Assembly (NCBI RefSeq): GCF_026130545.1
Contig: NZ_JAMOIM010000010.1
Coordinates: 1 to 64,000 of the forward strand
Direction of reading: 5' to 3'
Source of the DNA: Lichenifustis flavocetrariae
Lineage (GTDB): Bacteria; Pseudomonadota; Alphaproteobacteria; Rhizobiales; Beijerinckiaceae
DNA length: 64,000 bases
In this document: positions 34,293 to 49,289 of the stretch, piece by piece
Numbering within the stretch: the first letter of the stretch is position 1
Layout: every line of letters starts with the position of its first letter
The notes under the pieces: model-generated
Database searches by the model: none
Told to the model about the DNA's origin: nothing
The model's input: only the letters and a program-made list of their open reading frames with translations
Position numbers and translations under genes: made by a program

Positions 34293-34586
34293 CTAACGGC
34301 TACCAAACGGGGAAGAGGCTGCCATCGGGGTCGACGGGCCACGACCCGGAAAAGCAGGGCGCTCAGGACGCTTGCGCGCCGGCACCAGACCTTCACGTTC
34401 AGCCTGCTTGCGGGCCAGTTTGCGAGCACGACGGACCGCTTCGGCAGCTTCACGGACGCGCTTTTCCGAAGGCTTCTCATAGGCACGCCGACGCTTCAGC
34501 TCACGCAACACGCCCTCGCGTTGCATCTTGCGCTTAAGCGCCTTCAGGGCCTGATCGACGTTGTTGTCACGAACAAGAACTTGCAC
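34293..34586 (-). CDS. rpsU: 30S ribosomal protein bS21
   Basis: 97 residues: [20 protein letters not shown] is the conserved S21 start, followed by the basic coiled region ([20 protein letters not shown]). It is about 25 residues longer than E. coli S21, with a Pro/Ser-rich tail. S21 sits near the 3' end of 16S rRNA and aids initiation. It is downstream of cspA on the minus strand and separated from it by a strong terminator, so it is probably transcribed separately. Confidence 0.95.
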
Positions 34587-34610: not shown

Positions 34611-34638
34611 AAAAAAGAGCTGGGATCACTCCCAGCTC
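34611..34638 (-). terminator. rho-independent terminator of cspA
   Basis: On the minus strand, a 9-bp stem (34630-34638 with 34617-34625, loop of 4) is followed immediately by six T's (34616-34611). It lies 67 bases after the cspA stop and 25 bases before rpsU. Confidence 0.88.
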
Positions 34639-34704
34639 CCTCTATTGCATTCTAGTGAAACACATACCCCGCCGCCACTGCATCAGTGACGGACAGGGAA
34701 AGAA

Positions 34705-34917
34705 TCACGACAATGCTTGAAGCTGATCCGCCGACTTCTTACCCGTGCGCTTGTCGGCGACGAGTTCGTAGCTGACCTTCTGGCCCTCGTTCAGGGTAGC
34801 CATGCCGGCCCGCTCGACAGCGCTGATATGGACGAAAACGTCCTGGCCGCCCTCGGACGACTCAATGAAACCAAAACCCTTGGTCGGGTTGAACCACTTG
34901 ACTGTGCCGGTGCTCAT
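34705..34917 (-). CDS. cspA: cold-shock-domain protein
   Basis: 70 residues, a single cold-shock domain with RNP1 KGFGFIE and RNP2 VFVHIS, and the common start [18 protein letters not shown]. It binds single-stranded RNA/DNA as an RNA chaperone. The ATG is preceded by aaggagttc. A roughly 250-base region without genes lies upstream and could be a long structured leader, as is usual for cold-shock mRNAs. Which csp paralogue this is cannot be told. Confidence 0.93.
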
Positions 34918-35170
34918 GACGAACTCCTTGTTGGCATAGGTTAAAGATCTAACCGGGATATTCTCCCAGCTAGGGCTATGTCGATAAGTCGGAGGAGGTC
35001 ATAGCAAGCGTACAAACTAGGTTTGAAACGCGAAGGCCTGAACGTTCAGCCTAGAATCGATATGTAACACGTAAGCGCGAATCGAGGAGAAATCAAGACG
35101 CCAATGACGTCCATTTTGGCTTCGGCTTCCTTGCAAGCAATGCCACCCTCGCCGTCGACGCGTTGGCCGG
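34918..35170 (-). promoter_or_regulatory. upstream region/possible long leader of cspA
   Basis: This gene-free stretch separates the terminator after rplR from cspA. It must hold the cspA promoter and may include a long 5' leader as in other cold-shock genes. I could not fix a convincing -35/-10 pair. The ribosome-binding site aaggag is at its 3' end. Confidence 0.4.
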
Positions 35171-35209
35171 CGAAACGAAAGAAGCCCGCAGACCGAAGTC
35201 GCGGGCTTC
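35171..35209 (-). terminator. terminator ending the str-S10-spc cluster after rplR
   Basis: On the minus strand the stem gaagcccgc (35209-35201) pairs with gcgggcttc (35189-35181) over an 11-base loop and is followed by a T-rich tail, tttcgtttcg. It starts 50 bases after the rplR stop, showing that the ribosomal transcript ends here. Confidence 0.75.
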
Positions 35210-35258
35210 CTGGATAACAAAAGCAGCCTCGTCTGAAGGTCTCCGCAGAGAACGCCTG

Positions 35259-35612
35259 CTAGAACTTCAGTCCACCCTCACGTGCGCCCTCGGCCAAGGC
35301 CTTGATGCGACCGTGGTACATGTATTGGCCGCGATCGAATACGACCTCGGCAATCCCCTTTTCGACCGCTTTCTTTGCAAGCTGCTCGCCCACAGTTTTC
35401 GCCGCCTCGATATTCGCACCAGTCCTGAGCTGCTCTCGATTTGCCTTCTCCAACGAGGAGGCGGACACCAGCGTTTCACCCTTGGCGTCGTCGATGATCT
35501 GCGCGTAAATCTGCTTCGAGGAACGGTGCACCGAAAGGCGCAATCGGCCTGTCGCCTTGATGGCGCGGCGGACGCGGTTTGCGCGTCGGGCCGCCGGATC
35601 CAATTTCGTCAT
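35259..35612 (-). CDS. rplR: 50S ribosomal protein uL18
   Basis: 117 residues with the L18 pattern: [20 protein letters not shown] and the C-terminal [20 protein letters not shown]. It binds 5S rRNA together with L5. Start ATG 35612 at [13 protein letters not shown], 11 bases after the rplF stop. It is the last gene of the cluster here: the expected next genes rpsE-rpmD-rplO-secY are missing. Confidence 0.96.
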
Positions 35613-35622
35613 GACGGCCTCC

Positions 35623-36156
35623 TTACTTCTTCTTGCCTTCCTTGCGGAAGATGAACTCGCCAGCGTATTTGACACCCTTGCCTTTGTAGGGCTCCGGCGG
35701 ACGCAGCGAGCGGATTTCCGCGGCCAACTGGCCGACGGCGCGTTTGTCGATCCCGCTGATGGCGAGTTCGGTCGGGCGCGGAGCCACGATCGCAATCCCA
35801 TCGGGGATCGGGAACGTAATATCATGGCTATAGCCAAGGGACAGCTGCAGGTTCTTACCCGCGACAGCCGCCTTGTAGCCCACGCCCGTGATTTCGAGGC
35901 GCTTCTGGAACCCCGCGCTCACACCCGTCACGATGTTGTTGATCATCGCCCGGGACGTGCCCCAAAGGGCTTGAGCGCGCTTGGTTTCAAAGCGCGGATC
36001 GACCTTGATTTCATCATTGGCGAATTCGACAGACACATCGTCATGGACCACGAAGGACAATTCGCCCTTCGCGCCCTTGACCGATACCTTCTGGCCTTCG
36101 ACCTTGGCCGTGACGCCTTTCGGCACCGGCACGGCCTTCTTACCGACTCGAGACAT
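35623..36156 (-). CDS. rplF: 50S ribosomal protein uL6
   Basis: 177 residues, usual length. Shows [14 protein letters not shown] at the start, the mid-protein [20 protein letters not shown], and the C-terminal signature [11 protein letters not shown]. It lies near the factor-binding site of the large subunit. Standard place between rpsH and rplR. Confidence 0.97.
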
Positions 36157-36180
36157 TGTTCAATTCCTTATCGGCCGTGG

Positions 36181-36579
36181 TCAGAAGACCTTGCAGAGGA
36201 CTTCACCGCCGACGTTGTTCTCGCGGGCGACGTGATCGGCCATGACGCCCTTGGGCGTCGACATGATGGTAATGCCGAGGCCGTTGGCAACGCGCGGCAT
36301 CTGATCGACGGCCGAATAGACGCGACGGCCGGGCTTGGAGACGCGCTGAATATCCTTGATGACCGGCTGGCCGTCGAAATACTTCAACTCGATATCGAAT
36401 TCGGTCCGCCCATTTCCGAGGTCGGTCTGCGAATAGCCACGGATGTAGCCTTCCTGCTCCAGCACGTCGAGCACGTTGGCACGAAGCTTGGAGCCGGGAG
36501 TCGACACCTTGCCCTTCTTGCGCATTCCGGCATTGCGGATGCGGGTGAGCATATCGCCCAGGGGATCATTCACCGACAT
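36181..36579 (-). CDS. rpsH: 30S ribosomal protein uS8
   Basis: 132 residues: [15 protein letters not shown] at the start and the end block GGEVLCKVF. In many bacteria S8 represses the spc operon by binding a 16S-like hairpin near rplE. No such hairpin was clearly identified here. Standard position after rpsN (12-base gap). Confidence 0.97.
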
Positions 36580-36591
36580 GGCTGCGCTCCC

Positions 36592-36897
36592 TTACCAGCT
36601 GGACTTCACGAGACCGGGGATCAGGCCCTTGTTGCCCAACTCCCGCAACGCGATGCGCGACATCTTCATCTTACGGTAGACCGAACGCGAGCGACCCGAG
36701 ACCTCGCAACGGTTGCGGATCCGAGTCACCGCAGAATTCCGCGGCATTTCCGCGAGCTTCAGGCGGGCCTCGAAACGCTCTTCCATCGACAGGCTCTGGT
36801 CTGCGGCGGTCTTCTTCAGGGCATCGCGCTTGGGCGCCAACCGCGCCACCAGTGCCTTGCGGTTGTTGTTCTTTTCGATCGAGCTTTTCTTTGCCAT
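36592..36897 (-). CDS. rpsN: 30S ribosomal protein uS14 (zinc-independent form)
   Basis: 101 residues, the long form without the zinc-binding cysteines (only one Cys, in NRCEVSGR). The C-terminus [20 protein letters not shown] is typical. ATG 36897 at MAKKSSIEK is chosen over a longer frame that starts within the rplE region. Confidence 0.97.
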
Positions 36898-36937
36898 CAG
36901 TCTTTCCTTGGTGTCCGCGTCTGAACTTCGGTGAAGC

Positions 36938-37594
36938 TCACTGCCGGAACGGGAAGTTGAATGCACGCAGAAGCGCACGCGCTTCGTCGTCGGTTTTCGC
37001 CGTGGTGCAGATGATCACGTCCATCCCGATCACCGACTCCGTCTTGTCGTAGTCGATCTCAGGGAAAATGATGTGTTCCTTGATGCCCATCGCATAATTG
37101 CCGCGGCCATCGAAGCTCTTCGGGTTCAGCCCACGAAAGTCTCGGACGCGAGGCAGAGCAATCGTCGTCAGCCGGTCGAGGAACTCATACATGCGGGTAT
37201 GTCGCAAGGTGACCTTCGCACCGAGCGGCATGTTCTCACGCACCTTGAAGGTCGAGATCGCCTTGCGGGCATGCGTGATGACGGGCTTCTGACCGGCGAT
37301 CAGGGCAAGGTCAGCGGCTGCGGTCGACACCTTCTTGGTGTCGCTCACAGCTTCGCCAACGCCCATGTTCAGTACGATCTTTTCGATCTTCGGGACGGCG
37401 AGCGCGTTCTTGTAGCCGAACTCCTCGATCAGCTTCTGGCGAATCTCATCGAGATAGAGCTTCTTTAGGCGCGGCGTGTAGCCTTCCGGCGGCGCGGCAG
37501 CGATCGACGTGTCGAACTGGCCGACCGAACCACGAGCGATCTTACCGGGCGCGGGCGCAGAACTCGCGCGCTTGGCGGTTTGAGCCTCAGCCAT
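36938..37594 (-). CDS. rplE: 50S ribosomal protein uL5 with N-terminal extension
   Basis: 218 residues, about 38 longer than the usual 179-185. The extra N-terminus is Ala/Pro-rich ([17 protein letters not shown]). The core begins at [14 protein letters not shown] and has [13 protein letters not shown] and the ending [11 protein letters not shown]. The start ATG overlaps rplX by 8 bases, and no internal start with a better site is obvious, so the extension appears genuine. L5 binds 5S rRNA and contacts tRNA at the P site. Confidence 0.95.
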
Positions 37595-37901
37595 CGATCA
37601 ACTCTCCCGACTTCTTCGCAACACGAACCTTGCGGCCATCTTCCAATATCTTGAACCCAACACGAACAGGCTTGCCGTTCTTATCGGCCAGCGCGAGGTT
37701 CGAAAGATGGATCGGGGCTTCCTTCGAAATGATGCCGCCCTGCTCCGTCTGGCTCTGCTTCGTATGGCGCTTCACCATGTTGATGCCGCCGACGCGAGCC
37801 CGTTCTTCCTTGGGGAAGACTTCCAGCACTTCGCCATCGCGACCCTTGTCGCGACCAGCCAGCACGACGACCTTGTCGCCCTTCTTGATCTTGGCGGCCA
37901 T
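37587..37901 (-). CDS. rplX: 50S ribosomal protein uL24
   Basis: 104 residues, usual length, with the KOW motif at the start ([20 protein letters not shown]) and the [10 protein letters not shown] block. An early assembly protein of the large subunit. It overlaps rplE downstream by 8 bases and shares one base with rplN upstream (37901). Confidence 0.97.
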
Positions 37902-38269
37902 TACAGCACCTCCGGGGCGAGCGAGATGATCTTCATGTGGTTCTTGGCGCGCAGTTCACGCGGCACCGGTCCGAAGATGCGGGTTCCCACGGGCTCCGAC
38001 TGGTTGTTCACCAGCACGGCCGCATTCGTGTCGAAACGGATCACGGTCCCGTCGGGACGCTTGATGTCCTTGGCGGTTCGCACCACCACGGCCTTCATCA
38101 CATCACCCTTCTTCACGCGACCGCGTGGAATAGCCTCCTTGATGGAGACGACGATGATGTCACCCACGCCGGCGTACTTCCGCTTGGAACCACCCAGCAC
38201 CTTGATGCACATAACGCGGCGCGCGCCGGAATTATCCGCGACGTCCAGGTTTGTCTGCATCTGAATCAT
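37901..38269 (-). CDS. rplN: 50S ribosomal protein uL14
   Basis: 122 residues: [20 protein letters not shown] at the start, [19 protein letters not shown] and the ending [11 protein letters not shown]. Located at the subunit interface. Upstream of it, instead of the usual few bases, there are 270 bases of repeat-like DNA separating it from rpsQ. Confidence 0.97.
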
Positions 38270-38295
38270 GGCATTTGCCTTTCAATATTCCCGGA

Positions 38296-38500
38296 CCCCA
38301 CCGCAGCGAGGCGGCGGAGGGAAACTCAGATGATTGTTGTCCCGCGCCGGTCACCCGACCTAGGAATTCCGCCCCTCCTTCCGCCGCGAACGGGGAAGGT
38401 GGCACCGCAAGGTGCCGAATGCGGTCGTGGGGCAGAGCCTCGACCTCACCTTTCACAAGCAACACGCCCTCCCCTGCTCTCGCAAAGGAGGGACAAATTG
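38296..38500. repeat. repeat-like intergenic block inside the ribosomal operon
   Basis: The 270-base gap between rpsQ and rplN carries several short inverted repeats, e.g. ggcacc-gcaa-ggtgcc (38401-38416, a stem with a GCAA tetraloop), and clusters such as gcccctccttccgccgcgaa and a ccctcccctgctctcgcaaa run. The text 'GGGGAAGGTGGC…GCC' is of the type found in dispersed intergenic repeats of Hyphomicrobiales, and resembles the block at 21578-21618. A 77-codon open frame across it has no plausible product. Confidence 0.55.
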
Positions 38501-38539
38501 ACCTGAAAGCAGGCTGAAGGCCTGCCTCTTACACGAGTT

Positions 38540-38800
38540 TTACGCCTGTGTCTCGCTCGATCCGCCAGCCGCAGACGGCAAAACCGCCCAGCGCTTCAAT
38601 TTCGAAATCGGACGCGTTTCCTCGATCGACACCATATCGCCGACCTTGAACACCCGATTCTCGTCATGCGCATGGTAGTTCTTGGTGCGGCGGACGGTCT
38701 TCTTCAGAAGCGGATGCGTGAAGCGGCGCTCGACCTTCACGACCACTGTCTTCTCTTGCTTGTCGCTGACGACAACGCCCTGCAAAATTCGCTTCGGCAT
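38540..38800 (-). CDS. rpsQ: 30S ribosomal protein uS17
   Basis: 86 residues: [20 protein letters not shown] is the conserved start, followed by [15 protein letters not shown] and [15 protein letters not shown]. It binds 16S rRNA early in assembly. Separated from rpmC by 4 bases upstream, but from rplN downstream by an unusual 270-base spacer. Confidence 0.97.
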
Positions 38801-38804
38801 CGCT

Positions 38805-39020
38805 TCACCCGTTCTTCACGCTGCGCTTCTGCGCAGCGAAGGTTTTCGCCCGCGCGATATCGCGGCGAACCACCCGAACGCGAGAGCTGTTTTCCAGCTG
38901 GCCTGTGGCGCGCTGGAAGCGGAGATTGAACTGTTCCTTCTTCAGCTTCAGGACTTCTTCCGAAAGCTGGTCTTCCGTCATCACCTTGATGTCGGACAGG
39001 CGCTGCGTGGATTTCATCAC
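38805..39020 (-). CDS. rpmC: 50S ribosomal protein uL29
   Basis: 71 residues with the two-helix L29 pattern ([40 protein letters not shown]). It lies next to the exit tunnel, where trigger factor and SRP dock. It sits between rplP and rpsQ as usual. Confidence 0.96.
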
Positions 39021-39029
39021 CTGTCTCCT

Positions 39030-39443
39030 TTATTCGGCGATACGTTGGATGAACTTGGTCTTGATCGGCAGCTTCGCGGCCGCGAGCAGCAGCGCTTCGC
39101 GGGCTGTTTCCACCGGCACGCCATCAAGTTCAAACATGATGCGGCCGGGATGGACCCGGGCCGCCCAGAACTCAGGGGCGCCCTTGCCTTTACCCATGCG
39201 GACTTCGGTCGGCTTCTTCGAAACCGGCAGATCCGGGAAGATCCGAATCCACACACGTCCTGCGCGCTTCATGTGACGGGTCAAAGCACGTCGGGCCGCC
39301 TCGATCTGACGTGCCGTGACGCGCTCCGGCTCAAGCGCCTTCAGGCCAAACTGGCCAAAGTTGAGCTCGAAGCCGCCCTTGGCCGCGCCTTTGATGCGGC
39401 CTTTGAACGCCTTTCGGAAGACTGTTCGCTTGGGTTGCAGCAT
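39030..39443 (-). CDS. rplP: 50S ribosomal protein uL16
   Basis: 137 residues, usual length: [33 protein letters not shown], and [20 protein letters not shown]. It contacts the A site and peptidyl-transferase centre region. The gene follows rpsC after a 31-base gap. Confidence 0.97.
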
Positions 39444-39474
39444 GGGTTTGTTTCTCTGTTCTTATGCGCTGCGG

Positions 39475-40206
39475 TCAGGCCGCGCTGCGATTGTCGCGAT
39501 CACGCCGACGGCGCTCACCGCCACCGCCACCCGCTTGGTCGAGTTCAGCCATCCGCTTGTCCTGGGCCATCGGATCGTGCTCGAGGATCTCACCTTTGAA
39601 GATCCACACTTTGATGCCGCAGGTGCCGTAGGCCGTATTCGCCGTCGCCACGCCGTAGTCGATATCGGCGCGCATCGTGTGCAATGGCACCCGACCTTCG
39701 CGATACCATTCGAGGCGAGCGATTTCAGCGCCGCCCAAGCGACCCGAGCAATTGATGCGAATCCCCTGCGCGCCGAGCCGCATGGCCGACTGCACGGCCC
39801 GCTTCATGGCGCGACGGAACGCGACGCGGCGTTCGAGCTGCTGCGCGATCGAGTCGGCGACCAGCGTCGCGTCGATCTCGGGCTTACGCACTTCCGTGAT
39901 GTTGATCACCACTTCCGAGGTCGTGAGCTTCGACACCATCTTGCGGAGCTTGTCGATGTCGGCGCCCTTTTTGCCGATCACCACACCCGGACGTGCCGAC
40001 TGGATCGTGACGCGGCACTTCTTATGCGGACGCTCGATGACGATCTTCGAGACAGCCGCCTGCTTCAGGGCGCCCATCAGCACTTCGCGGATCTTCATGT
40101 CCTCATGAAGCAGCTTGGCATATTCGTTCTTGTTCGCGAACCAACGCGAGTCCCAGGTCCGGTTGATGCCGAGACGCAGGCCGATCGGATTGACTTTCTG
40201 ACCCAT
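39475..40206 (-). CDS. rpsC: 30S ribosomal protein uS3
   Basis: 243 residues. The KH domain is visible ([19 protein letters not shown]) as is the C-terminal domain with [19 protein letters not shown]. The tail ([16 protein letters not shown]) is Gly/Arg-rich, as is frequent in alphaproteobacteria. It forms part of the mRNA entry site. Confidence 0.97.
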
Positions 40207-40216
40207 GATCCTGTCC

Positions 40217-40600
40217 TCAGGCCGCTTCTTGCGCGACTTCGCGCACGATGATGGTCAGGTTCGAGAACGGCTTCTCGATCCGACCCGCCCGGCCGCGGGC
40301 GCGGGGGCTGAAGCGCTTCATGACGAGCGCCTTGCCCACATAGGCCTCGGCGACGACGAGATCGTCGACATCGAGGTCATGGTTGTTCTCGGCATTGGCG
40401 ATGGCGCTCTCGAGCGTCTTCCTCACGTCGAGCGCGATCCGCTTGCGGGAGAACTGGAGGTCAGCCAGGGCCGTGTCGACCTTCTTGCCGCGAATGAGCT
40501 GCGCCAAAAGGTTGAGCTTCTGCGGGCTGATGCGGATCATCCGCGCCACCGCCTTGGCTTCCGTCTCGCCGAGCGTCCGGGGTGCTTTCTGCTTGCCCAT
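40217..40600 (-). CDS. rplV: 50S ribosomal protein uL22
   Basis: 127 residues with [20 protein letters not shown], and the tunnel loop [20 protein letters not shown]. The loop lines the exit tunnel and is where macrolide-resistance changes occur in other bacteria; none is evident. Four bases separate it from rpsS. Confidence 0.97.
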
Positions 40601-40603
40601 GCT

Positions 40604-40882
40604 CTAGCCCCTCTTCGACTTCTTATCCGCGGTATGACCGTGGAACGTTCGCGTCGGCGCGAACTCGCCGAACTTGTGACCGATCATGTCCTCGTTCACC
40701 TGCACGGGAATGTGCTTGTGACCGTTATGGACGCCGAACGTGAGACCCACGAATTGCGGCAGAACCGTCGAACGACGGCTCCAGATCTTGATGACTTCAC
40801 TGCGGCCCGAAGCGCGCGACGTATCGGCTTTCTTCAGCAGATACCCGTCGACGAACGGACCCTTCCAGATCGAGCGTGACAT
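40604..40882 (-). CDS. rpsS: 30S ribosomal protein uS19
   Basis: 92 residues, usual length: [20 protein letters not shown] at the start, [14 protein letters not shown] and [19 protein letters not shown]. It sits in the head of the small subunit near S13. Four bases separate it from rplB upstream. Confidence 0.97.
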
Positions 40883-40885
40883 GGA

Positions 40886-41722
40886 TTAGCCCTTCTTGCG
40901 GCTGTGACGGGACTGCACGATGAATGTCGTCGTCCGCTTGTTGGTGCGCGTCTTCTTACCCTTGGTCGGCTTGCCCCACGGGGTCACGGGGTGACGGCCG
41001 CCCGATGTGCGTCCTTCACCACCACCGTGCGGATGGTCGATCGGGTTCATGGTGACGCCGCGGTTATGCGGACGACGCCCGAGCCAGCGCGACCGGCCCG
41101 CCTTACCGTGGCTGATGTTCATGTGATCGGGGTTCGAGACCGCACCGATCGTGGCAAAGCACTGGCCGTGAATGAGACGCGTCTCGCCGGACGCCTGCCG
41201 GATGCTGACATAGCCCTGGTCGCGTCCGACAATCTGCACATAGGTGCCGGCCGACCGGGCGATCGAACCACCCTTGCCGATCTTCATCTCGACGTTGTGC
41301 ACGATCGTGCCGACCGGAATTGCCGCTAGCGGCATGGCATTGCCTGGCTTCACGTCGACCTGAGCGCCGGCCACGACCTTGTCACCGACATTCAGGCGCT
41401 GTGGCGCGATGATGTAGGCCTGCTCGCCATCCTCATACTTGATGAGGGCGATGAAGGACGTGCGGTTCGGATCGTATTCCAGCCGCTCAACCGTCGCCGG
41501 GATGTCGAGCTTGCGCCGCTTGAAATCAATGATGCGATAGGTCTGCTTATGACCGCCGCCCCGGAACCGGACCGTGACCCGACCCGTATTGTTACGGCCG
41601 CCGGCCTCCGACTTGCCCTCGGTGAGGGTCTTGAGCGGCTTGCCCTTGTAGAGACCGGACCGGTCAACCATCACCAGCTGGCGCAGGCTTGGCGTGACTG
41701 GCTTAAATGTTTTCAGTGCCAT
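40886..41722 (-). CDS. rplB: 50S ribosomal protein uL2
   Basis: 278 residues, typical length. Conserved blocks: [17 protein letters not shown], the functionally important [20 protein letters not shown] with the invariant His, and [14 protein letters not shown]. It is needed for subunit joining and peptidyl-transferase activity. Confidence 0.98.
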
Positions 41723-41744
41723 GACAGCGTTCCTTGCCCTCTCC

Positions 41745-42041
41745 TCAGAGGCCCGTGGTGACGTCGATCGAGTGGCCTTCGGCCAAGCGCACGATCGCTT
41801 TTTTCACGTCGCCCTGGGTACCCCGGCGGCCACGGAAGAATTTCGTTTTGCCCTTGCGGACGAGCGTGTTGACGCCTTCGACTTTGACGTTGAACAAGGC
41901 CTCGATCGCCGCCTTGATCTGCGGCTTGGTCGCGTCCTTGTGCACCTTGAAGGTCATGCGGTTCAGTTCGGACGCCAGAGTCGCCTTCTCGGTGATGACC
42001 GGGGCGACGATGACGTCATAATGGGTCAGTGCGTGGCTCAT
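41745..42041 (-). CDS. rplW: 50S ribosomal protein uL23
   Basis: 98 residues: [19 protein letters not shown] and [20 protein letters not shown]. Located at the tunnel exit with L29. It overlaps the end of rplD by 4 bases, indicating coupled translation. Confidence 0.96.
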
Positions 42042-42658
42042 TTGAAGCGTGCCTCCAAAGCGTCCACGGCAGCCCGGGTGAGAACCAGCTTCTGGCGACG
42101 CAGAATGTCGTAAACGTTGATGCCCTGCACCGGCAGCACATCGATCTGCGGAATGTTGCGCGCCGCGAGCGAGAAGTTCTGCTGCAGTTCCGCGCCGTCG
42201 ATGATCAGGGCGTTGGTCAGCCCCAGAACGCCAAACCGCTCCTTCAGGAGCTTCGTCTTGCCCTCGTCAAGCGAGGCCTTGTCCCACACGATGATCTCGC
42301 CGCTTCGGGCCTTGGCCGAAAGGGCGTGCTTCAGCGCGAGCGCCCGCACCTTCTTTGGAAGGTCATGCGCGAAGGACCGCGCAACGGGGCCGTGAGCCTT
42401 GCCGCCGCCCCGGAACTGCGGAACGCGCGCCGAGCCGTGACGAGCCGAACCCGTGCCCTTCTGCTTGTACATCTTCTTGCCGGTGCGCCACACGTCCGCG
42501 CGGCCCATGGTCTCGTGCGCCACGTCACGACGCTTGGCCAACTGGTAGCGCACCATGCGGGCGATCAGATCCGGGCGCGGCTCGAGCCCAAAGATCGCAT
42601 CGGACAATTCGACCGTACCGGCCGACTGTCCATCGAGGGAGGTCATATCGATATTCAT
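42038..42658 (-). CDS. rplD: 50S ribosomal protein uL4
   Basis: 206 residues with the tunnel loop ([35 protein letters not shown]) and the C-terminal helical part. In enterobacteria L4 represses the S10 operon by binding its leader; whether that holds here cannot be judged. Overlaps rplW by 4 bases. Confidence 0.97.
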
Positions 42659-42663
42659 CGCTC

Positions 42664-43386
42664 TCAGCCTTCCGCGGTCATGGGTTCATCGGAGGCCGCG
42701 GCAGCACTCGACGCCGTCTTGAACTTGCCCGGCTTGGGGGCGTCCTTGTGCATCGGACGCTTGATCGCGTCGCGCACGAAGATGGTGCCGCCGGCAACGC
42801 CCGGAACGGCGCCCTCGACGAGCAAAAGGCCACGCTCGACATCGGCCTTGACGACCCGCAGGTTGAGCGTCGTGATCCGGTCGGTCCCGAGATGTCCGGC
42901 CATCTTCTTGTTCTTGAAGGTCTTGCCCGGATCCTGACGGCCGCCGGTCGAACCATGGGAGCGATGCGACAGCGACACGCCGTGCGTCGCCCGCAAGCCG
43001 CCGAAGTTCCAACGCTTCATAGGGCCCGCAAAACCCTTACCGGTCGCCGTGCCGGTGACATCGACGAACTGGCCTTCGACGAAATGGTCGGCCGTGATCT
43101 CGGCGCCGACCGGAATCATCTGATCGGGCGAAACACGGAATTCCGCGACCGTCATCTTCGGCTCGACGCTGGCAACAGCGAAATGGCCACGCTCGGCCTT
43201 CGACACATTCTTGACCTTGGCCTTGCCGAAGCCTAGCTGCAGCGCCGTATATCCGTTCGTCTCTTCCGTGCGATGCGCGACGACCTGGCAGCCTTCGAGC
43301 TTCAGCACGGTAACCGGAACATGCTCGCCTGCATCCGTAAAGATGCGGGTCATGCCGACCTTCTGGGCGATAACACCTGACCGCAT
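42664..43386 (-). CDS. rplC: 50S ribosomal protein uL3
   Basis: 240 residues. ATG 43386 ([16 protein letters not shown]) is chosen over an upstream in-frame codon adding only 8 residues. The conserved [19 protein letters not shown] includes the Gln methylated by PrmB in other bacteria. The C-terminal tail ([15 protein letters not shown]) is extended and acidic. Confidence 0.97.
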
Positions 43387-43441
43387 TGTCAGAAATCCTT
43401 CAAGACACATCGCTATGAGAGGTGTCGGTCCAAATCAGGGA

Positions 43442-43750
43442 TCAGAGCTTGATCTCGACGTCCACGCCGGCAGCCAAATCCAATTTCATCAGCGCGTCGA
43501 CCGTTTGCGGGGTCGGATCGACGATGTCGAGCACGCGCTTGTGGGTTCGGATCTCGAACTGCTCACGCGACTTCTTGTCCACGTGTGGCGAACGGTTGAC
43601 CGTGAACTTCTCGATCCGGGTCGGCAGCGGAATGGGTCCGCGAACCTGGGCTCCCGTGCGACGCGCGGTCGACACGATTTCCTTCGTCGACGCGTCCAGG
43701 ACGCGATGATCGAAGGCTTTGAGGCGGATGCGGATGTTTTGACCGTTCAT
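43442..43750 (-). CDS. rpsJ: 30S ribosomal protein uS10
   Basis: 102 residues, usual length: [19 protein letters not shown] start and [20 protein letters not shown]. It works in the ribosome and, as NusE, in antitermination. It begins the S10 part of the cluster; an unusual hairpin lies between it and tuf. Confidence 0.97.
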
Positions 43751-43772
43751 TTTTTCATCCTTTGATCAAGGT

Positions 43773-43795
43773 GGAGCGGGAGCAACTCCCGCTCC
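43773..43795 (-). terminator. 10-bp perfect hairpin between tuf and rpsJ
   Basis: ggagcgggag (43773-43782) and ctcccgctcc (43786-43795) with a 3-base loop lie 13 bases after the tuf stop. No T-run follows on the minus strand, so it may be a partial terminator, an RNA-processing site or a stabiliser separating the abundant tuf message from the S10 genes. Confidence 0.55.
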
Positions 43796-43807
43796 CTCGA
43801 TCGCCTC

Positions 43808-44998
<1,191 letters not shown>

Positions 44999-45051
44999 CG
45001 ATGGCTCCTCTTAAACCTTGGTCAGGCTCAACTGGGTGGATTGGAAGAGGT

Positions 45052-47127
45052 TCAGGCGTATTTCGCCTGAACTTTGGCGGCTTCACCCGCCGGGACCTGC
45101 TCGTAGTGATCGAACTGCATCGTGAAAGTGGCACGACCCTGGCTGAACGACCGGAGCGTGTTCACATAGCCGAACATATTGGCGAGCGGCACCATGGCGT
45201 TGATGACATTCGCGTTGCCGCGCATGTCCTGGCCCTGGATCTGCCCACGACGCGAGTTCAGGTCGCCGATGACCGAACCCGTGTAATCCTCCGGCGTCAC
45301 GACCTCGACCTTCATGATGGGCTCCAAAAGAACGGACCCGCCCTTCTGCAGAGCTTCTCGGAAGGCTGCCCGGGACGCGATTTCGAAGGCGAGCACTGAC
45401 GAGTCGACGTCATGGAACGCGCCGTCGATGAGAGTCGCTTTGGTGTCGACCACCGGGAAACCCGCCAGGATGCCGGACCCCATCACGCTGTTGATGCCCT
45501 TCTCGACGCCGGGGATGTATTCCTTCGGCACCGCGCCGCCGACGATCTTCGACTCGAACAGATTGCCTTTTCCGGCCTCGTTCGGCTCGAAAATGATCTT
45601 CACCCGCGCAAATTGACCCGTACCACCGGTCTGCTTCTTGTGGGTGTAGTCCTGCTCGACACGGCGCGTCAGCTTCTCGCGATAGGCCACCTGCGGGGCG
45701 CCGATATTGGCGTCGACCTTGTAGGTACGGCGCAGAATGTCGACCTTAATGTCGAGGTGGAGCTCGCCCATTCCCTTGAGGATGGTCTGGCCGGATTCCT
45801 GATCGGTCGACACGCGGAAGGACGGATCCTCCGCGGCCAACTTCGACAGAGCGACGCCTAGCTTCTCCTGGTCTGCCTTAGACTTCGGCTCGATCGCGAT
45901 TTCGATGACAGGCTCAGGAAATTCCATGCGCTCGAGAATGACTTGCTTCTGCATGTCGCAGAGCGTGTCACCCGTGCGGGTATCCTTGAGGCCGGCCAGC
46001 GCGACGATGTCGCCCGTATAGGCTTCCTTGATGTCCTCGCGGTTGTTCGCGTGCATGAGAAGCATACGACCGACGCGTTCCTTCTTGTCCTTGGTCGAAT
46101 TCATGACCGTCGTGCCGGTCTCGACCATGCCCGAATAGACGCGGCAGAACGTTATCGTGCCAACGAAGGGATCATCCATGATCTTGAAGGCGAGCATCGA
46201 GAAAGGCTCGTCGTCACCCGGCAGGCGCACGACTTCCTCTTCGGTCTTGACGTCGATACCCTTGATGGCTTCGCGATCGAGCGGCGACGGCAGGAAATCC
46301 ACGACGGCGTCGAGGAGCGGCTGCACGCCCTTGTTCTTGAACGCGGTTCCGCACAGCACCGGAATGAAGGTGATATAACGCACGGCCTTCCGGATCAGGC
46401 GCTTGAGGGTCTTCTCGTCCGGCTCGGTGCCGTCGAGATAGGCGGACATGACGTCGTCGTCGAGTTCCACGGCGGCTTCGAGCAGCGCAAGACGATATTC
46501 GTCCGCCTTCTCCTTGAGGTCAGCCGGGATCTCTTCGTCATGGAAGGTCGCGCCGAGGTTCTCGTTGTCCCAAACGACAGCCTTCATGCGGACGAGGTCA
46601 ATGATGCCCTTGAAGTCGGACTCGGAACCGATCGGCAATTGAATGCAGATCGCCCGGCCGCCGACGCGGGTCTTGATGTCATCGACGCATTTGTAGAAGT
46701 CGGCGCCGATCTTATCCATCTTGTTGACGAACACGATGCGGGGCACGTGATACTTATCGGCCTGGCGCCAAACGGTCTCGGTCTGCGGCTCAACACCCTG
46801 GTTGCCGTCAAGCACGCAAACGCAGCCGTCGAGCACGCGGAGCGAGCGCTCCACCTCGATCGTGAAATCCACGTGACCGGGCGTGTCGATGATGTTCAGG
46901 CGATGGTCGTTCCAGAAAGTCGTCGTGGCAGCCGAGGTGATCGTGATGCCGCGTTCCTGCTCCTGCTCCATCCAATCCATGGTGGCAGCGCCATCATGGA
47001 CTTCGCCGATCTTATGCGACTTGCCGGAATAATAGAGGATCCGCTCGGTCGTCGTAGTCTTGCCCGCGTCGATGTGGGCCATGATGCCGAAGTTGCGGTA
47101 GTCCTCGATTTTATGGGTGCGAGGCAT
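45052..47127 (-). CDS. fusA: elongation factor G
   Basis: 691 residues, the canonical translocase. GTPase motifs [30 protein letters not shown] and [10 protein letters not shown] are intact; domain IV (GVPKEY-like region with [15 protein letters not shown]) and the C-terminal [11 protein letters not shown] are present. Located between rpsG and tuf as in other bacteria. Confidence 0.98.
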
Positions 47128-47145
47128 GGGGAGATCCTTGGTGCT

Positions 47146-47616
47146 TTACCAGCGGTAGTGCGAGAAGGCGCGATTCGCCTCCGCCATGCGATGTGTATCT
47201 TCACGCTTCTTGACCGCGTTGCCGCGGTTGTTTGACGCGTCGATCAACTCGTTCGAAAGACGGTCGACCATTGTCTTGTCGTTGCGGGCCCGGGCCGCCG
47301 TGATCAGCCAGCGGATCGCCAGAGCCTGGCGACGCTCGGGACGAACCTCGACCGGAACCTGGTAGGTCGCGCCTCCGACGCGCCGCGACCGAACCTCGAT
47401 GGCCGGCGCGACATTCTCGAGCGCCTGCTGGAAGATCGGCAAAGGCTCGACACGCAGCTTCGTCTCGATCTGCTCGAAAGCACCGTAGACGATCTGCTCG
47501 GCGACGGACTTCTTCCCGTCGTACATGATCGAGTTCATGAACTTTGTGAGAATCACATCACCGAACTTGGCGTCCGGGATGATCTCTCGCTTTTCTGCGC
47601 TATGGCGACGGGACAT
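47146..47616 (-). CDS. rpsG: 30S ribosomal protein uS7
   Basis: 156 residues, usual length: [20 protein letters not shown], the RNA-binding [20 protein letters not shown], and the ending [13 protein letters not shown]. It nucleates assembly of the head of the small subunit; in E. coli it represses the str operon. Confidence 0.97.
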
Positions 47617-47635
47617 GGTCGGTTCCTGAAATTCG

Positions 47636-48007
47636 TTACTTCGGACGCTTCGCGCCGTACTTGGAGCGGCGCTGCTTCCGGTTCTTCACGCCCTGCGTGT
47701 CGAGCACGCCGCGGAGAATGTGATAGCGCACGCCCGGCAAATCCTTCACGCGGCCACCGCGGATCATGACCACCGAGTGTTCCTGAAGGTTGTGGCCTTC
47801 ACCCGGAATGTAACCGATCACTTCGAAGCCGTTCGTCAGACGAACCTTGGCAACCTTACGAAGCGCCGAGTTCGGCTTCTTCGGGGTCGTCGTATAAACA
47901 CGTGTGCAAACCCCACGCTTCTGCGGGCTCTGCTGCAGCGCGGGAACTTTATTCCGCACCACGGATGCGACCCGCGGGTTGCGGATCAACTGGCTGATCG
48001 TCGGCAT
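47636..48007 (-). CDS. rpsL: 30S ribosomal protein uS12
   Basis: 123 residues from ATG 48007 ([12 protein letters not shown]); the longer frame upstream is leader DNA. The conserved [15 protein letters not shown] and [13 protein letters not shown] are both wild-type at the positions where streptomycin-resistance changes arise (Lys in PKKPNS, Lys in VKDLPG). It is the first gene of the cluster, behind its own promoter about 320 bases upstream. rpoBC are not adjacent. Confidence 0.97.
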
Positions 48008-48553: not shown

Positions 48554-49048
48554 TCAGATCCGGAACGTCGCCATTCGCCGGGCCAACATGGCGACTGCGG
48601 AATCGTCGGCGTTTGAAATCAGAAGTATGGCCCGAACCATTTGCCCAGCCGTGCGAAGATGATCCGGCAATGGCAAAGCATAGATCGTCAGGCCAGCCTT
48701 CGGCAGAAGTGTCGGGGTCAGGCTTGAAGAGGGCTTCAATGCGACAGCAATAAGCTCTGAAAGAGCATGATTGTCGGCCGCGTCGCGAGCGATCAGATGG
48801 TGCGTCCGCAACCGCAGCGGCCCGTCTACAAATGGATTCGAGGCGCTGTTGGCGTGCAAGACACGGCCGTCGCCGTCGAAGAAGAGCGCCGGGATGCCAA
48901 GCAGCTCCAATGTGTCGGCGACGCCTCGGGCGTAGGCTCCGGCGATGATCGGCAGCAGGATCTCTTCGGGTAGCCGGTCGCTGCCGACGGATGACCGGAA
49001 GTCATCGTTGTCGACTGTCTCACGCTGAGGTGCGAAGAAACCCGTCAT
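48554..49048 (-). CDS. fragment resembling the sensory part of a LuxR-type regulator
   Basis: A 164-residue frame from ATG 49048 (a TTG at 49102 would add 18). The centre reads LLGIPALFFDGDGRVLHANS, which resembles the PAS-like segment of LuxR-type regulators common in Hyphomicrobiales, followed by a stretch like LRLRTHHLIARDAADNHALS. The C-terminal DNA-binding helix-turn-helix expected after LLISNADDS is absent: the frame ends at MATFRI. No HTH was found in the other frames just downstream. It may be a degraded regulator gene or a stand-alone sensory protein. Confidence 0.5.
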   Translation of the reverse strand: MTGFFAPQRETVDNDDFRSSVGSDRLPEEILLPIIAGAYARGVADTLELLGIPALFFDGDGRVLHANSASNPFVDGPLRLRTHHLIARDAADNHALSELIAVALKPSSSLTPTLLPKAGLTIYALPLPDHLRTAGQMVRAILLISNADDSAVAMLARRMATFRI

Positions 49049-49289
49049 CCATCCATCCGTAACAAGACCCGTGAAGTGGTCGTATCCGTATGGTGCAATC
49101 AACCGGCGAGGCTGTAAACGGTTCGACCGGATTCCGGTTTTTAATTATCCTTAATGTCTTGGCGGTCGGCATCGGGGTCAATCAGGGCGAAACCGCGCGC
49201 AAGCCGGACTACCGGCAGACGCTTGTGGGGCGCATCAAAACGCAGGTCGTGAAACTCAACGAGCGCGACAGTGCACGCTCTTCCTGGCC

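Follow-up and report, generated by a model that had tools for sequence, protein, structure and literature searches.

Few gene orders in bacteria are as conserved as that of the S10-spc-alpha ribosomal cluster, and the reason for its upkeep is debated. Further surveys of ribosomal cluster organisation exist besides the one used for comparison here. The relevant parts of that survey, Brandis 2021 (PMC8046335), describe 163 events in the ribosomal cluster of Gammaproteobacteria and Bacilli, comprising 115 rearrangements and 48 deletions. Most rearrangements occurred at operon joints, many events began with the insertion of genes at such joints and then led to separation, and the spc-alpha joint was concatenated in all genomes analysed there. 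The word Alphaproteobacteria is absent from the main text of that paper.

The arrangement described here involves the same cluster and the same kind of events as the cases in Brandis 2021, now in another class, and the split itself is a known kind of event and not a new kind of system. It differs in position. In that survey 75 of the 115 rearrangements left operons intact (PMC8046335), whereas the cut reported here falls within the classical spc operon, albeit at a wide spacer.

The divided cluster and its new neighbours

The window is the whole stretch of DNA analysed, 64,000 nucleotides corresponding to G000:C10:1-64000, and G000 (7.5 Mb, 180 contigs) is the genome to which it belongs. Five genomes of the same genus (G001 to G005) were used for comparison. 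Gene calls in the window place a cspA-type gene and rpsU after rplR, without rpsE-rpmD-rplO-secY, as an earlier note on this DNA had described (Table 1). That note had also reported a good terminator after rplR. The hairpin at this position folds strongly (-23.5 kcal/mol, z -3.07, with 0 of 200 shuffles as good) and its tail is T-rich, but it is not among the sites returned by a simple terminator scan, which found two others where 2.0 were expected, and the description of it as good therefore rests on the fold. The break interval between rplR and cspA has no other match in its own genome except weak ones to csp-like stretches.

Table 1. Features on both sides of the breaks. Positions are those of the window unless a contig is named.
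Feature	Position	Strand	Basis or remark
rpsU (S21), one of two genome copies	34293-34586	-	PF01165
cspA-type cold-shock gene, now next to rplR	34705-34917	-	PF00313
Break interval, new rplR/cspA junction	34918-35258	-	relatives carry rpsE at this place
Terminator-like hairpin 3' of rplR, then tail TTTCGTTT	35179-35211	-	RNA fold
rplR (L18), last str-S10-spc gene here	35259-35621	-	TIGR00060 129.5 bits (cut-off 87.85); PF00861
str-S10-spc (5' part) segment, rpsL-rpsG-fusA-tuf-rpsJ...rplF-rplR	35259-48007	-	tuf-to-rplR order as in five same-genus genomes
Small gene beside rpsL	48554-49102	-	no Pfam match; matched after rpoC in G003 and weakly in G004
Second break interval	49103-49289	.	RNase H gene, thrB-type gene and ispH in place of the rpoC side
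Candidate RNA leader 5' of rpsE	C158:87235-87284 (= L002:10236-10285)	minus	

The second rpsU copy is located at G000:C92:720305-720592, and each of the five same-genus relatives has one rpsU match. The protein predicted from the C92 copy is approximately 94% identical to those of G004 and G005, and the copy in the window is therefore probably the extra one.

At the other end of the segment, the genes found 5' of the str genes are an RNase H gene, a thrB-type gene (APH family) and ispH (LytB family). The rpoB and rpoC genes sit on a third contig, C125, which agrees with the earlier statement that the cluster begins at rpsL without rpoBC upstream. A single match to rpoC was found in the genome, as two parts of one frame. 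The pairing of RNase H with thrB is located away from the ribosomal cluster in G001 to G004. The small gene beside rpsL matches the stretch that follows rpoC in G003 (39% over 121 residues, E 5e-17) and more weakly matches G004 (39% over 46 residues, E 1e-5), and no match was detected within the searched stretches of G001, G002 and G005. Judged from these matches, the left end of the moved block is probably at the small gene, which would have remained beside rpsL as rpoC became detached.

The only rpsE match in the genome is at G000:C158:86727-87188 on the minus strand, and it is followed by rpmD, rplO, secY, adk, rpsM, rpsK, rpoA and rplQ. The whole group is located at ∼80 to 87 kb of that contig, and the distal half is complete. 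The remaining spc and alpha genes, which had been expected to lie elsewhere, have therefore moved and were not lost. Upstream of rpsE the sequence contains a gene of corA type, together with a small ORF whose product looks secreted by eye. Among the five same-genus genomes, G004 alone has a strong relative of the corA-patatin-SDR-adc group that adjoins rpsE here; in G004 this group is located at 3.06 Mb and the ribosomal cluster at 4.03 Mb.

Rarity of the break between rplR and rpsE

Matches to rplR and rpsE were sought in 120 genomes, including G000, and both genes were found in 112; the 8 genomes without a match to either rplR or rpsE were left out of the adjacency count. In 110 of the 112, rplR and rpsE are neighbours on a single strand, with 45 to 311 bases (median 133) between the matched stretches. 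The exceptions are G000 and G069. G069 was rejected as a second natural break, as its rplR and rpsE are at the ends of contigs that are 7,866 and 63,389 bases long. The two contigs concerned (L099 and L100) end exactly in the rplR-rpsE spacer. Hence only G000 of the 112 genomes shows the break inside contigs: the single match to rplR, on C10, and that to rpsE, on C158, are 35 kb and 87 kb from the nearest contig end, and both breaks are deep inside their contigs (215 and 274 kb).

The arrangement is also intact, with 55 to 294 bases between the genes, in all of a second collection of 80 named loci. These were the best 80 out of 441 confirmed loci, and their species overlap in part with those of the 120-genome set. 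The break is thus not common to the order, and chromosomal rearrangement, the reading offered at the outset, is also the best one after these counts. All five same-genus genomes keep rplR next to rpsE and retain the order from tuf to rpoA, and four of them also to rplQ, the stretch from G002 ending at rpoA. The break is therefore derived on the branch of G000 and arose, as far as these sequences indicate, after the split from the five.

The rplR-rpsE spacer and a candidate rpsE leader

The earlier note placed the break in one of the most conserved gene orders known. This is correct for the cluster, but in relatives the site itself is a spacer that is wide and bears a leader, unlike a tight junction within an operon. 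In intact relatives the rplR-rpsE spacer is about 150 to 205 bases, ranking fifth of 34 measured spacers in G004, sixth of 34 in G001, sixth of 32 in G003 and eighth of 33 in G002. Some wider spacers, such as rplO-secY and rplL-rpoB, are unbroken in G000, and width by itself therefore does not predict the cut.

Just 5' of rpsE is a conserved element consisting of AGCGAGCGG, a variable stem-loop and CCGCGCAAGTGACGGA. Among the 80 named loci (again the best 80 of 441), it was recognised by motif in 72 and by a covariance model in 71, the latter including 37 of the 46 outside the set from which the model was built. Of the 40 family genomes searched, 27 gave a match, in each case one that lies 36 to 86 bases before the rpsE match, and the other 13 gave none; 24 of the 27 have a single match, and three weak extra matches occur elsewhere. 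In a class-wide sample under stricter filters the leader was found in 2 of 142 genomes, both of the same family, and the model matched none of 25 loci from other families. The leader thus appears to be restricted to the family within what was searched. No description of an rpsE (S5) leader or of an rplR/rpsE split was found in the literature searched, at the level of abstracts.

The covariation score of the leader stem is 0.299 against 0.139 for shuffled alignments. None of 500 shuffles reached this score, which also exceeds that of every slid version. When 68 distinct rows were fitted to the model, the values were 0.297 and 0.149. Five pairs are changed on both sides, a number not above shuffles (468 of 500 reach 5). 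In G000 the leader remained upstream of rpsE, which places the cut 5' of it. The fold of this one copy taken alone is no better than shuffles (z 0.09; 95 of 200 as good). A resemblance to the leader beside cspA (∼34669-34700) was dropped; the only match of the model in the window is elsewhere, with E 0.98.

As a short covarying hairpin at the start of a ribosomal gene, the candidate resembles autoregulatory ribosomal operon leaders such as Alpha_RBS (RF00140). Six loci were searched against Rfam, and at the position of the leader no family, Alpha_RBS included, gave a match with an E value of 1 or better. Weak, sub-threshold matches to Alpha_RBS were observed away from the leader in four of these loci, at L002:5446-5499 (E 0.021), L123:8189-8244 (E 0.00052), L151:8003-8099 (E 0.029) and L174:8047-8105 (E 0.51). 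That in L002, a stretch of G000:C158, sits at the start of rpsM, and these matches are possibly relatives of the S4 leader.

Origin of the arrangement

It is very probable that the arrangement results from an ordinary, lineage-specific rearrangement of the str-S10-spc-alpha cluster, cut at an existing expression-module boundary such that both halves can be expressed. The block from the small orphan gene and rpsL to rplR is now located between the RNase H-thrB-ispH group and a second cspA-rpsU pair, with rpsE to rplQ behind the corA-type gene and rpoBC on a third contig. The S10/spc-5' half ends in the terminator-like hairpin and the rpsE half has retained its leader, and we propose that the cut was tolerated because the spacer was already a module boundary. 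No promoter-like match was detected upstream of rpsE or its leader in this genome, so we can only infer that the halves are transcribed separately and that the split costs little fitness; how the rearrangements came about, how many there were and in what order they occurred is likewise what we infer. A single simple inversion was considered and is not supported: in the examined stretches of the relatives, cspA-rpsU is not found with corA, nor the RNase H-thrB group with the genes that follow rpoC.

An artefact of assembly or binning, in which false joins on C10 and C158 would have placed the half clusters next to sequence that does not belong with them, is unlikely, and nothing in the assembled sequence pointed to one. 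G000 is a draft of 180 contigs with a listed contamination of 3.04, and the G069 assembly, from the same family, is interrupted precisely at the spacer in question; but an artefact would need at least two independent false joins inside long contigs, and more to account for the rpoC|str break and two insertions. The sequence of each junction lacks a counterpart at the other one and is not strongly repeated anywhere in the genome, and whole genes flank the three junctions examined. Since rpsE, rplR and rpoC have one match each, the halves are not remnants of two full sets. C10, C158 and C125 are alike in GC content (0.64 to 0.65 outside the ribosomal genes) and in tetranucleotide composition (correlation 0.77 to 0.86), an argument that is weak because G004 correlates equally with all three (0.77 to 0.85). 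When compared with G004 and G005, the proteins of the two halves show identities of similar size.

Much the same similarity of both halves to same-genus genomes, together with the presence of the family-typical rpsE leader, speaks against horizontal replacement of one half from another lineage with loss of the native half; no evidence in support of such a replacement was found, and its probability is close to negligible. A simple insertion, with cspA-rpsU and further genes placed between rplR and rpsE and rpsE following further along, would fit with the insertions seen elsewhere in this cluster, at rplA|rplJ and adk|rpsM, and with the proposal in Brandis 2021 (PMC8046335) that insertion comes first and separation later. 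However, C10 extends 35 kb past rplR without rpsE, and rpsE is 87 kb inside C158 behind corA. Insertion could be an early step. As a description of the present state, for which further contigs would have to join over a very long distance, it is highly improbable.

The lineage-specific rearrangement may be given a further, tentative reading, to which we assign somewhat less than even chances: the broken seam may be a regulated boundary, with rpsE-rpmD-rplO-secY in Beijerinckiaceae forming a separate unit under a candidate leader that senses a product of that unit, and the linkage to the S10/spc-5' half being dispensable because control by the leader acts in cis. If so, this lineage would be a natural experiment in which the conserved order appears as a series of self-regulated modules and not as one obligatory unit. 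The leader could then explain why the rplR-rpsE joint can be cut, and it merits its own study. With intact species in the same genus and both halves whole in G000, the cost of separation is open to test.

The break after rplR is most likely real, but it is not the sole change, as the wider cluster is altered at four places: insertions at rplA|rplJ and adk|rpsM, and breaks at rpoC|str and rplR|rpsE. The two breaks and two insertions are all located between modules. The rplA|rplJ insert of ∼5.9 kb (L117:2900-8600, on G000:C125) contains efflux genes of the HlyD and FUSC types and a further gene whose similarity to glycosyltransferases is weak, and rplA and rplJ adjoin in G002, G004 and G005. The distance from rpoC to rpsL is 1143 bases in G004, 849 in G001 and 465 in G002, and the contig of G005 stops downstream of rpoC. 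G003 was not counted as having rpoC and rpsL as neighbours because most of rpsL is absent there. In its rpoC-rpsG interval (L081:4619-5763) just the ∼32 final residues of rpsL can be made out, which may reflect a flaw in the draft assembly. The adk|rpsM insert is an 873-base ORF without a Pfam match (L002:5737-6609), in a position where the five relatives have a spacing of about 190 to 300 bases. By the sequence of events proposed in Brandis 2021 (PMC8046335), the spc-alpha joint would here be at an early stage, represented by this insertion. The C-terminus of its predicted product resembles, by eye, a PEP-CTERM-type signal.
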